NCBI RefSeq assembly: GCF_022808775.1
Contig: NZ_JAKZLA010000004.1
Span: forward strand, 1-64,000
Reading direction: 5' to 3'
Length of the DNA stretch: 64,000 nt
Source of the DNA: Geothrix terrae
GTDB taxonomy: Bacteria > Acidobacteriota > Holophagae > Holophagales > Holophagaceae
Positions 8,960-13,793 of this stretch are shown here, in pieces. A model generated the notes under the pieces. It worked only from the letters and a program-made list of their open reading frames with translations, made no database searches and had not been told where the DNA came from. The position numbers were made by a program, and so were the translations under genes. Each line of letters begins with the position of its first letter. The stretch's first letter is position 1.

Positions 8960-9097
8960 CCTCTGGGCTCGCCCCGCACCCTTCTAGCTCCGGCCTCTCT
9001 CATCTGTTGGCTGCCCCGTATTCCATCAAGTCCCATCCCTTGGCCAGGTGTTGTTGAGGTTTTATTTAATTATCGATTCGAGTGAGGTTGGATCTTG

Positions 9098-10915
9098 ATG
9101 CTTCTCCTCCCTGCACCCCATTTCCTCATACCGAGCATGGCTCAAGCGTCTCGAATCTCGGCGGAGGAAGTATTGACCAAAGCCAAAGCCGCCATGGGTG
9201 GGAACGCCTGGAACAGCGTGATCCACCTTGAACGCAGGGGCCGATTGAAGACTGGTGGATTAACTGGCACTTTGCACGAATGGGAGAGCCTTCTGGATGG
9301 ACGATCCACCAGCCAATATGACCTCGGGGTGACCAAGGGGGCCCAAGGATTCGACGGGAAATGCCAATGGTTCCAGGACGCGACTGGTGACCTCAGGACG
9401 GAACCTGCGGAGGCTCCAGGAAATCAGGCCTACATGACTTCCCGGGCGTATTGGTTTCCAGAGCGAGGCCAAGGGCAAATCGCTTATAAGGAACTATATG
9501 AGGGCCGTTACCATGTAATCACCCTCAAGCCAGACGGCCTGGATGCTATCGAACTTTGGATCGATGGCCGCAACTGGCTGCCCGACCGTGTGGTGACAAA
9601 TCCAGGCCCTGCCTCCGAGACGACGTTCTTCCAAGACTATCGAAACGTTTCGGGAATGATGATGCCATTCCGTCTATATACGCCAAAGCCGGATCCAGGG
9701 CAGGAAACGGTGATCGAGTACACATCGATTTCCGTGAATCCCAAGCTCGCGAAGGGGGTTTTCTCCCGCCCCGTGCCCAATCTTCTGGATTCGGGTGTTG
9801 AAGGAGGAGGAACCTCCACATCTGTGCCTCTCGAATACCTGGCCGATCACCTCCTCATCATGGCGACGCTGAACGGCAAGGGCCCCTTCCGATTCTTCCT
9901 GGATACCGGTGGGGTGAATGTTCTGAGCCCTGGCACCCTTAAAGCTCTTGGGCTACACGCAGCCGGCGCAGTTGAGGGAACTGGAGCCGGAGAAAAGGCA
10001 GAATCGTTTGGATTGACCCATGTTTCCCGTGTTCAGGTCGGTGCTGCCTGGATGAAGGACCAGAGTTTCTATGTGGTCCCCAGTTTAGAGAACATTAATA
10101 AGGTCATGGGCGTGGAGGTCGCCGGCATTCTTGGGTACGAGCTCCTTCGACGCTTTGTGGCACGGATAAATTATCTTCCTGGACGTCTGACACTGACGAT
10201 TCCAACCGGATGGACCTACCAAGGGCCTGGGGTGGGTGTGCCATTCACATTCAACGGGCATCACCCGCGCGTGAAGGGCGAACTCGATGGGATACCCGGA
10301 CTCTTTGACATCGATACCGGCTCCGGAGCCACGCTCGACGTTTACACCGCTTTCGCCAGCACACATGGGCTGAAAGAACGAGCAAGCCGGAGCATCACAC
10401 TCATGGCCGCCAGCATGGGCGTTGGGGGTAAGGTCACGAGTCATATGATCCGCGCCAAGGAATTGAAGCTGGGTGGAGTCCGCATGAAGGCTCCAATCGT
10501 CGGCCTCTCCACCAGCACGGCAGGTCTATTTGCCGACGCGAAGGCGGCGGGTAACGTGGGACAGGGTTTCCTTCGCCGCTTTGATCTGACGTTCGACTAT
10601 GGAAATCAGATGATCTATTTCGAGCCGAACAAAAACGGCGAAAGGCCCGATCGGTGGAATCTGACCGGATTGATTCCTGACCCATTGGATTTGGGCCGTA
10701 TCGCCGAGGTCATTCCGGATTCCCCAGCCTGGGAGGCAGGCATCAGGAAAGGTGATCGCATCCTGATGATCGATGGCAAGCCCATGGATCGCTGGACCCT
10801 CATCACGCTCCGGAATCATTTCGCCGAACGTGTTCCCGGCGATCACCTCTCAATCACCGTGAAATCGGGCAACCAGGATCGCCGCCTCAGTTTGCTACTC
10901 CGAGACCTTTTATAG
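9098..10915 (+). CDS. Secreted aspartyl protease-like protein with PDZ domain
   Basis: The 605-residue protein has a short N-terminal hydrophobic signal ending near MAQA. The first 250 residues resemble outer-membrane lipoprotein-sorting-like beta-sheet regions. Two retropepsin-like modules follow, each with its own catalytic triplet: FFLDTGG at about residue 269 and FDIDTGSGA at about residue 406. A C-terminal PDZ domain (about 530-600, VIPDSPAWEAGIRKGDRIL) probably binds peptide ends. Two DTG motifs in one chain would allow a single polypeptide to form the two-Asp active site. The ATG at 9098 is preceded by an in-frame TTG (9095); a stop lies 5 codons upstream. The gene stands alone. Confidence 0.85.
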   Translation: MLLLPAPHFLIPSMAQASRISAEEVLTKAKAAMGGNAWNSVIHLERRGRLKTGGLTGTLHEWESLLDGRSTSQYDLGVTKGAQGFDGKCQWFQDATGDLRTEPAEAPGNQAYMTSRAYWFPERGQGQIAYKELYEGRYHVITLKPDGLDAIELWIDGRNWLPDRVVTNPGPASETTFFQDYRNVSGMMMPFRLYTPKPDPGQETVIEYTSISVNPKLAKGVFSRPVPNLLDSGVEGGGTSTSVPLEYLADHLLIMATLNGKGPFRFFLDTGGVNVLSPGTLKALGLHAAGAVEGTGAGEKAESFGLTHVSRVQVGAAWMKDQSFYVVPSLENINKVMGVEVAGILGYELLRRFVARINYLPGRLTLTIPTGWTYQGPGVGVPFTFNGHHPRVKGELDGIPGLFDIDTGSGATLDVYTAFASTHGLKERASRSITLMAASMGVGGKVTSHMIRAKELKLGGVRMKAPIVGLSTSTAGLFADAKAAGNVGQGFLRRFDLTFDYGNQMIYFEPNKNGERPDRWNLTGLIPDPLDLGRIAEVIPDSPAWEAGIRKGDRILMIDGKPMDRWTLITLRNHFAERVPGDHLSITVKSGNQDRRLSLLLRDLL

Positions 10916-10952: not shown

Positions 10953-11306
10953 TCAGGCGCCTCCCGGGATTCCTTCGCTTCCGGCCAGGAGGTCCGCCCA
11001 CTCGGCCTTCTTGGCCTTCAGCGATTCCTTGAGGATCAGGGGGCTCATCTCTTCTTCGAGGACTTCGAGGATGACGTACTCGAAGGCGGCTTCGCCGTGC
11101 TGGTTCCAGGCCGCCTGCAGCCCGCGATCGAGGTGGCGGCCTTCATTCAGCTGATGCCACAGTCCGTTCCGGGTGGTGTCGAGGTTCGGATTCGCGCCGG
11201 CCCACGCGCGACCCGACGCCAGGTGGCGCACCGCATAGATGCCGGGCCGCGGCTTCCGCTCCTTGTAGGCCCGAAGCGCCGCTTTCCGATCGAAAGAACC
11301 GTCCAT
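10953..11306 (-). CDS. GIY-YIG-fold protein, probably the second gene of a DUF2239 operon
   Basis: The 117-residue protein begins at an ATG with GGAGG 7 bases upstream. GIYAVRHLASGRAW is the GIY strand pair, although the YIG half is degenerate (WAG). It is followed by LWHQLNEGRH, LQAAWNQHG and FEYVILEVLEE. This is the small stand-alone GIY-YIG group common in Firmicutes and Acidobacteria, whose members are annotated as nucleases without a defined target. Because catalytic positions are altered, nuclease activity is uncertain. It lies 32 bp after the DUF2239 gene in the same direction. Confidence 0.75.
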   Translation of the reverse strand: MDGSFDRKAALRAYKERKPRPGIYAVRHLASGRAWAGANPNLDTTRNGLWHQLNEGRHLDRGLQAAWNQHGEAAFEYVILEVLEEEMSPLILKESLKAKKAEWADLLAGSEGIPGGA

Positions 11307-11338
11307 GTCCTGCCCTCCCGTCTCCCAGGTCCGCGCCC

Positions 11339-11971
11339 TCAGGGCTCGGACACGAATGCCGCCTGCGCGAGCTTCCGGGCATGCTCCCGGATGTCCTCCG
11401 GCCATGGCTGGATGTGCGTCTCGAAGGCCGTCGCATTCCCGGCGTAGAGCGCGCGCAGGGCTTCCTCGTACCCGGGGGCATCGCCGGCCATGGCCGCCAT
11501 GAAGCGGTAGGCGCGCTCCTGGGCCAAGCGTCGGCGCTCGCTGGCCGTCCCCGTCCGGCGGGCCTCTTCCACGAGCTTGCGCAGGGCCACCGAAGCCCCG
11601 CCGGGCTGGGCGCTGAGCCACTCCCAATGCCGCGGGAGGAGGGTGACCTCCCTTGGCACGACGCCAAGCCTGGGCCTGCCCCTTCCCCGCGGCTTCTCCG
11701 GCTGCTCCTGCGGGATGCCGAGGCGGGCGACCACGTCCTCGGGCGTCCCGCGCAGGTCGAGGTCGATGACGCGGCCCGTTTCATCGTCGAACACCAATAC
11801 ACTTTGCCCCAGGCCCTCCGCCCGACCCCCAACCTGACCTTCTGCCTGACCCTCTGCCTGGCCGCCATCCACGCGGGCCTTCACGGCCACGGCCACCTGT
11901 CCGAGCGGGCCAGAGGCGAGGCGGCGCGGGCCGTCGAAGGCGGTGCAGGGCGCCATCGTGCGATCGAGCAT
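11339..11971 (-). CDS. DUF2239 family protein
   Basis: The 210-residue soluble protein matches the DUF2239 pattern: TAFDGPRRLASGPLG at the N-terminus, VFDDETGRVIDLDLRG in the middle, then GRGRPRLGVVPREVTLLPRHW and a helical C-terminus containing AYRFMAAMAGD and YEEALRALYAG. The function is unknown. The GRGRPR stretch followed by basic residues is reminiscent of DNA-binding tails, which is my inference only. A small imperfect tandem repeat (GQAEGQAEGQVGG) interrupts the first domain near residue 40. The ATG at 11971 follows an AGGGAA. A promoter with repeated flanking motifs lies just upstream. Confidence 0.8.
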   Translation of the reverse strand: MLDRTMAPCTAFDGPRRLASGPLGQVAVAVKARVDGGQAEGQAEGQVGGRAEGLGQSVLVFDDETGRVIDLDLRGTPEDVVARLGIPQEQPEKPRGRGRPRLGVVPREVTLLPRHWEWLSAQPGGASVALRKLVEEARRTGTASERRRLAQERAYRFMAAMAGDAPGYEEALRALYAGNATAFETHIQPWPEDIREHARKLAQAAFVSEP

Positions 11972-11998
11972 GGGTGGTTCCCTTTCCCTCGCTGTCTA

Positions 11999-12027
11999 TT
12001 ATTACCCGTATTAAAATCACTCGACAA
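11999..12027 (-). promoter_or_regulatory. Promoter of the DUF2239 operon with flanking direct repeats
   Basis: On the minus strand TTGTCG (12022-12027) and TAATAA (11999-12004) are 17 bases apart. A related motif, CCGTAT(T)AAAAT on the plus strand, occurs at about 12005-12017 and again at about 12034-12044. One copy lies between the two promoter boxes and the other just upstream of the -35, the layout expected of an operator. The protein that would bind is unknown. Confidence 0.4.
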
Positions 12028-12155
12028 TAACATCCGTATAAAATTAATCTCACCGGTTTTTGCCAGATCACCCCAAGAGTGGCCGCAAAAAAGACGGCTC
12101 CCCTCGAAACTCACCATGGCGTTCGCCGGGTGACTCGGACACAATCCTTGCCGCC

Positions 12156-13793
12156 ATGGACGCCATGACCTTGCATGTTCCGGGATTCGGCCCGCTCCTG
12201 CTGGAGGGAGAGGACGGCCGGACCTGGCATTTCGGCCGCTCGCACCAGAACGAGGTCGTGATCGCCGATGGGGCCCTGAGCCGGCGCCACGCCCGGGTCG
12301 TGATGCACCGGGGCATCCCCTTCCTCGAAGATCTGGACAGCCGCAACGGCACCTTCATCAACGGCGAGCGGGTCCACGCCCCCCGTCCCCTGCGCGGCGG
12401 GGACGAGGTGCACCTCGGCTCCGTCCACATCCGGGTGACCGGCGGAACCCTCGGTCCCGAGGTCCGGTTCCGCGACGAGAGCGGATCCTCCCCCCAGTCG
12501 AGCGTGGTCCTTCCCATCGACGAGGCCTGGAGGACCTGGCTGCCCTCGGGCGCGCCAGACCGCATGGGGGCGGTGATCCGGGACCTCCAGGACCTCAGCC
12601 TGGAGCTCATCAAGGACGTGCCGCCCGGGACGCTGCTCGACCACGTGCTGGATCACCTCTGGAACCAGCTCCATCCCTGGCGGGCGGCGATCCTCCTCTC
12701 GGGCCCCGGCGGGAATCTTAAGCCCGTGGCTTCCCGCGCCAGCGAAGGACACGCCACCATCAGCCTCTCCACGCATCTGGTGGAGTCCGCCCTGGCACGG
12801 CGGCAGGCCGTGCTCTTCCGTGATGTCGAGGCGGGCACCGGGAGTCCTTCCCTGCTCCTCAGCGGCATCTCCACGGCCATCGTGGCGCCCCTGGAATTCG
12901 AAGGCGCCATCCTCGGCCTGCTCTACCTGGATGCCAAGGCCCCGCGCGCCCCCTTCACCGAGCAGGACCTGGGCCTCGCCAGCACCTTCGCCCACCTGGC
13001 CTCGGCGAAGCTGGAGCAGGTCCGCATGCAGGAGGAGGCCCAGAGACGGCGCTCCCTGGACCAGGAGCTGGACCTGGCCAGGCACATCCAGCAGGGCCTC
13101 CTTCCGGGCCTGCCTCCGGAGATCCCGGGCTACGAGCTCCATGGCAACAACCTGCCCAGCCGCCAGGTGAGCGGCGACCTCTTCGGATGGTGGCTGCGGG
13201 AGGATGGCCGCTGGCTCCTGGCCCTGGCCGACGTCAGTGGGAAGGGCCTGGGGCCGGGGCTCCTCATGGCGAGCCTCTCCGCGTTCCTCGAAGCCTTCGG
13301 CGAGCGGGACATCGCACCGGACGACCTCGCCTTCCACCTCTCTCGCGCCCTGGCCCGGCACACGGACGGGAAACGGTTCGTGACGGCCTTCCTGCTGCTC
13401 TTCGAGCCCGCCACGGGCGAGGTGACCTTCACGAACGCGGGTCACAACCCGGGCTATCTGGTGAGCGCCGACGGGACTTTCCGGGCGCTGGAATCCCAGG
13501 GGCTGCCCCTGGCCATGCTGCCGGGGCAGCCGTACGGCTCCGGCTCCTTCCGCCTGGAGCCCGGCGATCTCCTGGCCCTCTACACCGACGGCATCACGGA
13601 AACCGCGGCGCCGGACGGCGAGGAGTACGGCGAGGATCGCCTCCAGGCCTTCCTGCGGAGGAGCCAAGCCCTCGGGCTCGACGCCATCGACGCGGGCCTC
13701 ATGGCGGACCTGGAAGCCCACGCGAAGGGGGGCCCATTCACGGACGACCGCACCATCCTCCTGCTGCGGCGGGCCGCTAGCTCTTCTGGATGA
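12156..13793 (+). CDS. FHA-GAF-SpoIIE type serine phosphatase
   Basis: The 545-residue cytosolic signalling protein has three domains. An FHA phosphothreonine-binding domain (about 5-100) carries GRS (27-29), SRRH (42-45) and SRNG (62-65). A GAF-like sensor domain spans about 150-300. A PP2C/SpoIIE (RsbU-like) phosphatase occupies 320-540, with metal ligands in SGDLFG (about 338), DVSGKG (about 358), TDGITE (about 477) and DDRTILL (about 529). Such proteins dephosphorylate anti-sigma antagonists or other Ser/Thr-phosphorylated partners; no partner is encoded nearby. There is no clear Shine-Dalgarno before the ATG at 12156, so the transcript may be leaderless. Its 3' end overlaps the slipin gene tail by 17 bp on the opposite strand. 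Confidence 0.88.
   Translation: MDAMTLHVPGFGPLLLEGEDGRTWHFGRSHQNEVVIADGALSRRHARVVMHRGIPFLEDLDSRNGTFINGERVHAPRPLRGGDEVHLGSVHIRVTGGTLGPEVRFRDESGSSPQSSVVLPIDEAWRTWLPSGAPDRMGAVIRDLQDLSLELIKDVPPGTLLDHVLDHLWNQLHPWRAAILLSGPGGNLKPVASRASEGHATISLSTHLVESALARRQAVLFRDVEAGTGSPSLLLSGISTAIVAPLEFEGAILGLLYLDAKAPRAPFTEQDLGLASTFAHLASAKLEQVRMQEEAQRRRSLDQELDLARHIQQGLLPGLPPEIPGYELHGNNLPSRQVSGDLFGWWLREDGRWLLALADVSGKGLGPGLLMASLSAFLEAFGERDIAPDDLAFHLSRALARHTDGKRFVTAFLLLFEPATGEVTFTNAGHNPGYLVSADGTFRALESQGLPLAMLPGQPYGSGSFRLEPGDLLALYTDGITETAAPDGEEYGEDRLQAFLRRSQALGLDAIDAGLMADLEAHAKGGPFTDDRTILLLRRAASSSG

Follow-up and report, generated by a model that had tools for sequence, protein, structure and literature searches.

The TetR and MarR families are autorepressors of multidrug efflux operons. 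The DUF2239 family resembles them in that it is, as we propose here, autoregulated, in that palindromic operators lie over the -35 and -10 elements of its promoter and in that further sites are found in trans; its genes also often share an operon with a MATE gene, and in single cases with an MFS gene or with genes of a detoxification type. Unlike TetR and MarR regulators, DUF2239 has a pseudo-GIY-YIG protein as a partner and gives no fold match, and neither TetR nor MarR Pfam families are among the matches of 50 DUF2239 members listed at E 10, a search in which the HMMER filters drop most weak matches. The mode of working would be that of the known efflux autorepressors, and the DUF2239 family and its site are undescribed in the literature searched: no open-access paper on the family was found, also under the names COG3644, PF09998 and IPR018715, and searches with the operator (TACCCGGGTA and six site variants including ACCCGGATAA) gave no regulator of the site by title among the matches listed. 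In one paper TACCCGGGTA occurs as a cloning primer. A synthetic operator, AATTGTTATCCGGATAACAATT, is one that we take to be of the lac type. It forms part of an engineered circuit (PMC6129954) and does not belong to a DUF2239 system.

The partner protein has its own described relative in the GIY-YIG domain of I-TevI (1mk0, 1ln0), with which it agrees in fold and in sequence profile and from which it differs in having other residues in place of the catalytic Arg, of the second Tyr and, mostly, of the Glu. On plasmids of Bacillota, a relative of the partner is fused to DUF2087 (Priestia) or stands in tandem with it (Peribacillus; loci L247 2242-3396 and L248 2220-3354). DUF2087 has been associated with putative transcriptional regulators (PMC7113386). 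This pairing differs from the one described here in that the regulator belongs to another family and that its upstream sequence, inspected by eye, shows no site of the DUF2239 type. Read by eye, the Peribacillus and Priestia GIY-YIG proteins have no catalytic Arg and keep Glu-Asn-Lys-Trp-like and Gly-Tyr-Asn stretches, and they may be less degenerate. On the Priestia plasmid a MATE gene is also close by, on the far side of an IS110 transposase. In Caulobacter, two GIY-YIG genes, not necessarily of the partner family, are reported to rise upon deletion of XRE factors, and a phage factor represses them (PMC10688885).

Here we analyse a DUF2239 locus of Geothrix terrae. We propose, with a probability of roughly 0.8 and on sequence comparison, that DUF2239 is a self-controlling transcription repressor that acts through the palindrome TTTTACCCGGGTAATA and that elsewhere it would control a regulon of an efflux or detoxification type. 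This would give a testable function, namely repression with a named site and named targets, to a family that occurs in several phyla and is annotated only as unknown, and it would tie the family to MATE drug-efflux pumps in various bacteria, many of which belong, going by their names, to genera of soil or root nodules. It also suggests that the GIY-YIG nuclease fold has a second use, in which it accompanies regulators and does not cut. For genetic tools, the pair of site and protein appears simple enough to be used as a portable repressor.

The operon and its promoter

The window, a stretch of 64,000 nucleotides, carries both genes on the minus strand, with an intergenic gap of 32 bases from DUF2239 to the GIY-YIG gene. 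The first-pass annotation had read them as one operon, and the gene pair is confirmed here. The DUF2239 gene (11339..11971, minus) encodes 210 aa and, on our proposal, the autorepressor; its product matches PF09998 at E 1.1e-76 with 257 bits, the cut-off being 25, over profile positions 2-182 of 182. A purine-rich stretch, in sequence a ribosome-binding one, lies just 5' of its ATG at 11971. The closest named relatives with DUF2239 are Geothrix paludis and Geothrix sp. SG200, at a protein identity of 85-86%. Second in the operon is the small GIY-YIG-fold gene (10953..11306, minus; 117 aa), whose product is probably not a nuclease.

Upstream of the pair, two copies of a CCGTAT(T)AAAAT repeat had been noted around the -35 and -10 elements. 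They are indeed present on the forward strand (CCGTATTAAAAT at 12006-12017 and CCGTATAAAATT at 12034-12045) but are better read on the minus strand, as the opposite strand of two imperfect palindromes, TTTTATACGGATGTTA and TTTAATACGGGTAATA, which stand 28 bp apart and have TTTTACCCGGGTAATA as their family consensus. Operator site 1, TTTTATACGGATGTTA (12028..12043, minus), abuts the -35-like hexamer TTGTCG (12022..12027, minus), whose position is that of the family consensus TTGACn directly after site 1; the site has one mismatch to the pattern used in the genome search and agrees with the family consensus at 11/16 positions. Operator site 2, TTTAATACGGGTAATA (12000..12015, minus), overlaps the -10-like hexamer TAATAA (11999..12004, minus), which lies 17 bp from the -35 hexamer and occupies the position of the family -10 within site 2; this site matches the pattern exactly, the best match in the genome, and reaches 13/16 to the family consensus. 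Together the two sites have the conserved dual layout described below.

Within the 64-kb window, and with two mismatches allowed, the motif has 4 matches; shuffled windows have a mean of 1.98, and 12/100 of them reach 4. As this is not beyond chance for the window alone, the weight of the motif rests on its conservation across bacteria. When the whole genome is searched with the palindromic pattern, which was drawn up to include the two window sites, both operator sites are recovered, at 0 and 1 mismatches, and no other match lies below 2. At two mismatches the genome gives 4 matches versus 10 for the reversed-pattern control, so that matches at this level are meaningless.

The surroundings of the pair are as follows. 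A divergent gene on the plus strand (12060-13793), by eye encoding a phosphatase of the FHA-GAF-SpoIIE type, has the intergenic region in common with the pair, and a gene convergent with the GIY-YIG gene (9095-10915, plus) appears by eye to encode an aspartic-protease-like protein with a PDZ-like C-terminal part.

Conservation of the operator

The repeat is conserved upstream of DUF2239 genes elsewhere, one of the two points by which the first-pass annotation had proposed to judge its reading. A site agreeing with the consensus at 12 or more of 16 positions lies upstream of 101 of the 105 unique DUF2239 genes, a set that is unbalanced in that Bradyrhizobium and other Alphaproteobacteria dominate it. 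Sites in the dual layout, 24-31 bp apart, are found in 81/105 and missing, at the thresholds used, in 24/105. In control windows (n=9,244; taken from the 63 loci L018-L080 and mostly coding) a site at this threshold occurs in 3 and the dual layout in 0, and in shuffled upstream regions (n=10,500) the numbers are 64 and 1; the background with both strands scored is 62 of 7,383 windows (0.8%) at 12 or above. The upstream regions numbered 109 before removal of duplicates, and 5 more, including the one from Acinetobacter (L244), were dropped because they lacked a usable start. Among the four upstream regions that have no site at 12 or above, one (L033) owes this to a misplaced start and scored 13 in a separate scoring.

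The geometry is conserved as well: of the 81 dual promoters, 75 have a spacer of 16-18 bp, with site 1 abutting the -35 element and site 2 overlapping the -10 element. This is a conserved operator-like site over the gene's own promoter, as autoregulatory repressors have it. Going by record titles, the dual layout is present in Acidobacteriota, many Proteobacteria and one record each of Desulfobacterales, Gemmatimonadetes and Anaerosomatales; it is also found in Deinococcus and, on a plasmid, in Paenibacillus. The family itself also occurs in Caulobacter vibrioides. Acinetobacter, which stands outside the count of 105 regions, has by eye a weaker pair of sites. At one locus (L039 5592-5858, genome G093), the GIY-YIG frame beside DUF2239 is broken by a stop, and the spacing of the operator pair is altered (34).

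Among the 77 genomes of Holophagaceae, with one mismatch allowed, a site match occurs in 15/16 genomes with DUF2239 versus 3/61 without it (Fisher 3.5e-12), and in the DUF2239-bearing genomes every match listed precedes DUF2239. The one exception is G065, where DUF2239 is divergent and a GIY-YIG partner is absent; the DUF2239 promoter there nonetheless carries two weaker-matching sites, of 13/16 and 12/16. The single matches in the three DUF2239-free genomes have neither gene nearby, the one in G069 lying inside what appears to be chemotaxis-receptor code. In other genomes the one-mismatch pattern does give chance matches, as reversed-pattern controls match in 8/16. Site matches away from the DUF2239 locus were sought in 47 DUF2239 genomes, the reversed-pattern control matching in 2/47. 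Thirty loci were fetched, and six of them lie at neither gene (L130, L131, L145, L151, L157, L158), including one inside a dnaJ-like frame (L151) and one upstream of an FAD gene (L145); at three further off-locus matches (L235, L238, L239) no clear target was seen.

The partner gene and its own sites

DUF2239 and the GIY-YIG gene occur together. In the 77 Holophagaceae genomes each is found in 16, with both in 15 and adjacent in the fetched loci; in the order that contains the Bradyrhizobium locus (G092; 249 genomes) GIY-YIG is found in 22, DUF2239 in 40 and both in 21, and the order that contains the Caulobacter locus (G094; 249 genomes) has 44, 55 and 39 in turn (Fisher p 1.5e-18 and 3.7e-27, kinship ignored). 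The arrangement varies, with DUF2239 first, with GIY-YIG first, divergent or unlinked, the last in 24 of the 58 genomes with DUF2239 that were examined in the two orders. Of 114 DUF2239 locus rows, which are not deduplicated and over-represent Bradyrhizobium, 22 have GIY-YIG downstream, 20 have it divergent, 24 have a codirectional MATE gene close downstream and 49 have none of these, one row having both MATE and a divergent GIY-YIG. The neighbourhood of the two genes is thus conserved beyond Geothrix, the second point that the earlier reading had depended on, as the 15/16 of Holophagaceae and the downstream and divergent rows attest. In the sole GIY-YIG-only genome of Holophagaceae (G009; L241 2335-2667), the partner gene has an internal stop and no site upstream, which looks like decay following the loss of DUF2239.

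Upstream regions of GIY-YIG genes were scored on both strands over 200 bases (180 in one set). In the DUF2239 genomes of the two orders, GIY-YIG genes other than those second in the DUF2239 operon reach 12 or more upstream in 20/21 and 34/35 cases, or 54/56, the exceptions being G613, which has no site, and G326, which scores 11. From the second order we left out G608, for which tblastn gave no match, G398 and G470, which matched only weakly and in part, and two GIY-YIG genes that are second in their operon. In genomes without DUF2239, the site is found on 0/5 GIY-YIG genes (G368, G424, G557, G582 and the weak G521). Since the site of a divergent pair is common to it and DUF2239, unlinked GIY-YIG copies are the cleaner test, and here the site is present in 23/24 when DUF2239 is present. 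The association of the site with DUF2239 has a Fisher p of 3.5e-6 overall, 5e-5 for unlinked copies and 2.4e-4 without G521, kinship ignored. Six further GIY-YIG loci, outside the two orders and with no DUF2239 in the fetched stretch, reach 12 or more in 5/6 cases, the remaining one (L124; G102) scoring 11; two of the six (L121, L129) lie near contig ends, which makes their linkage ambiguous, and one (L128) is also in the count of the second order. Conversely, several genomes have DUF2239 with an exact site match and no GIY-YIG partner that could be found. The site so tracks the presence of DUF2239 and not that of GIY-YIG, and with 23/24 for unlinked genes versus 0/5 where DUF2239 is absent, the simplest candidate for the regulator is DUF2239 itself.

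Efflux and detoxification-type genes

The efflux link comes from other bacteria, as the genome-wide pattern search of Geothrix, with at most one mismatch, gave no efflux gene with a site. Elsewhere, MatE was confirmed by Pfam in all four of the MATE loci that were tested (L021, L061, L073, L064), and single loci have, close downstream of DUF2239, an MFS (L066), ABM (L199), SnoaL (L041), DSBA-like (L047), DUF1993 (L068) or alpha/beta hydrolase (L205) gene, or a DUF1330-like one that falls below the Pfam cut-off (L057, L243). The genome G339 has four separate operator-bearing promoters, those of the DUF2239 operon, GIY-YIG, an FAD gene and MATE, the last with two sites 26 bp apart; two one-mismatch matches in this genome lie outside the examined set. 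In Bradyrhizobium-like genomes (L231, L233, L236) a gene for an FAD-dependent oxidoreductase is preceded by a lone operator-like site, at a distance of about 80 bp (G092, G097). The site of the FAD gene in G339 lies 110 bp upstream, the frame being shorter, and that in G266 (L234) looks decayed by eye.

The two proteins

The most conserved segment of DUF2239 comprises residues 98-138 (GRPRLGVVPREVTLLPRHWEWLSAQPGGASVALRKLVEEAR; 11558..11680, minus). Of the 22 columns that are invariant in an alignment of 50 sequences, 17 fall here. These residues are a natural candidate for the contact with DNA, and we propose them as the DNA-binding module; the aligned motif LLPxHWxWL is found in 50/50 members. 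Overlapping its start is the basic stretch RGRGRPR (residues 95-101; 11669..11689, minus), which to our reading resembles an AT-hook. The basic character of this stretch had been pointed out earlier, and it extends through the aligned family set, with GRP in 50/50 members and RGRP in 41/50; the RGRPR arm would possibly contact the AT-rich flanks of the site.

No DNA-binding fold emerges for DUF2239, with no significant match in PDB sequences, in PDB Foldseek or in viral Foldseek. The AlphaFold2 model has helices at 113-120 and 125-161 and low confidence at 103-106, VIA-align finds only helical look-alikes (best Z 6.0, mainly residues 117-210), and the model, being of a monomer, may conceal a dimeric fold. 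DUF2239 is the sole significant Pfam family in the 50 members, and in PADLOC the protein is unmatched. By eye, an extended stretch, a short helix, a long helix and a basic N-terminal arm recall the ribbon-helix-helix proteins (CopG/Arc/MetJ). The fold of those repressors is a dimer, with a two-stranded sheet plus four helices, and the DUF2239 models are of the monomer. In hhalign against approximate ribbon-helix-helix sequences, the probability is 0.6%, with 100 column-shuffled decoys reaching up to 0.9%, and the only related Pfam name is TraY, in 1/50 members at E 0.21, TraY being of ribbon-helix-helix fold. The likeness suggested by eye finds no support in hhalign, Pfam or fold searches.

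For the partner, the fold is plain. For the window protein Pfam gives nothing at E 1; phmmer against the I-TevI catalytic domain gives E 0.0014, and a profile of the partner family against I-TevI (1ln0) gives E 3.9e-9. Its AlphaFold2 model (mean pLDDT 82) matches 1mk0 (I-TevI) in Foldseek at E 2e-5 with a TMt of 0.78, so that profile and structure both place it in the GIY-YIG fold, and PADLOC (E 1.3e-7) and likewise PHROGs (E 0.00067) label it 'homing endonuclease'. The catalytic residues of I-TevI are numbered R27 and E75. In an alignment of the partner family with I-TevI, whose catalytic columns were read by eye, the Arg27 column has Arg in 0/21 relatives and the Glu75 column has Glu in 3/20; the partner family thus lacks the catalytic Arg of the GIY-YIG superfamily and, in most members, the Glu. 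Its YIG half, previously described as degenerate, is just that, reading W-A-G in the window protein and with W at the position of the second Tyr in 20/21 relatives. The partner is probably a catalytically dead member of the fold and not a nuclease, and with its catalytic residues lost it is more likely to bind than to cut, perhaps in the capacity of a co-regulator or sensor. This binding or sensing role, which the DUF2087 fusion and tandem pairing in Priestia and Peribacillus also favour, is the weakest step of the model set out below.

A repressor model and its alternatives

The first-pass annotation had thought autoregulation, or control by a regulator that recognises the motif, plausible, and the conserved neighbourhood and the upstream repeat speak for it. 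The conserved sites, their promoter geometry, the sites in trans, their dependence on the presence of DUF2239 and the operon partners are all read directly from the genomes. From them we infer that DUF2239 would bind the two TTTTACCCGGGTAATA-type palindromes of its own promoter, the first directly next to the -35 element and the second partly over the -10, and that in its bound state it would keep RNA polymerase off the promoter; repression rather than activation is favoured because the sites cover both promoter hexamers. A signal would release it, probably a small toxic compound, an inducer that the efflux and detoxification neighbours suggest. In Geothrix the controlled unit would be the DUF2239-GIY-YIG operon, and elsewhere DUF2239 and the site would control unlinked or divergent GIY-YIG genes, MATE pumps and further genes for transport or of a detoxification type. 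The partner protein would probably act by binding, for instance as a co-regulator or sensor. We also consider, tentatively and as a rather doubtful extension, that DUF2239 could be a phylum-crossing and so far unrecognised family of transcription factors with a DNA-binding architecture outside the known folds and that the pseudo-GIY-YIG protein could be its dedicated co-regulator or ligand sensor, a case of a nuclease fold taken into gene control, which has been paired independently with a second family of regulators, DUF2087, in Bacillota.

The sites could instead be bound by a separate, unlinked transcription factor that has DUF2239 and GIY-YIG merely as its targets. The binding by DUF2239 is indeed our deduction, and in the searches made here none of the known DNA-binding domains resembles it in fold. 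We nevertheless hold a separate factor to be unlikely, because such a hidden regulator would not regulate itself through the site in Holophagaceae, where the matches in DUF2239 genomes lie only before DUF2239, because GIY-YIG genes have the site in 54/56 cases with DUF2239 and 0/5 without it, and because no other regulator gene recurs among the downstream ORFs read by eye. Nor do the sites look like a mere promoter. If the repeat were a strong sigma-70 promoter conserved for its strength, with no operator, then the part of the conservation that consists of TTGAC and TAwwAw at promoter spacing would be accounted for; this would leave unexplained both the palindrome and the near-invariant CCGG core, neither of which belongs to the sigma-70 promoter consensus. 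The absence of any other site below two mismatches from the Geothrix genome and of the site from GIY-YIG genes without DUF2239 also argue against this explanation, to which we give hardly any credence.

The two genes could also be a pair of the toxin-antitoxin kind, with GIY-YIG as a nuclease toxin and DUF2239 as its autoregulated antitoxin. Loss is asymmetric in the manner that this would predict, GIY-YIG without DUF2239 being rare (1/22 and 5/44 in the two orders) and DUF2239 alone common (19/40 and 16/55), and the sole GIY-YIG-only genome of Holophagaceae has an internal stop in the gene. The catalytic Arg, however, is missing in 21/21 relatives, stop-free GIY-YIG frames stand without DUF2239 in G368, G424, G557 and G582, and DUF2239 operons often have MATE pumps instead. 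GIY-YIG is often unlinked and under its own promoter, and the tight linkage of toxin-antitoxin systems is not found here, with 24/58 unlinked and a stop-free partner without DUF2239 in those four genomes. We regard this explanation as improbable and prefer the repressor model.

In the phage collection, DUF2239 matches only two records, both of Acinetobacter phage, and is thus not mainly a phage gene there. In these records (H25 and H26, Acinetobacter phage MD-2021a), which are phage-labelled and 115 kb in length, the DUF2239 homologue lies near the end and could belong to flanking host DNA.
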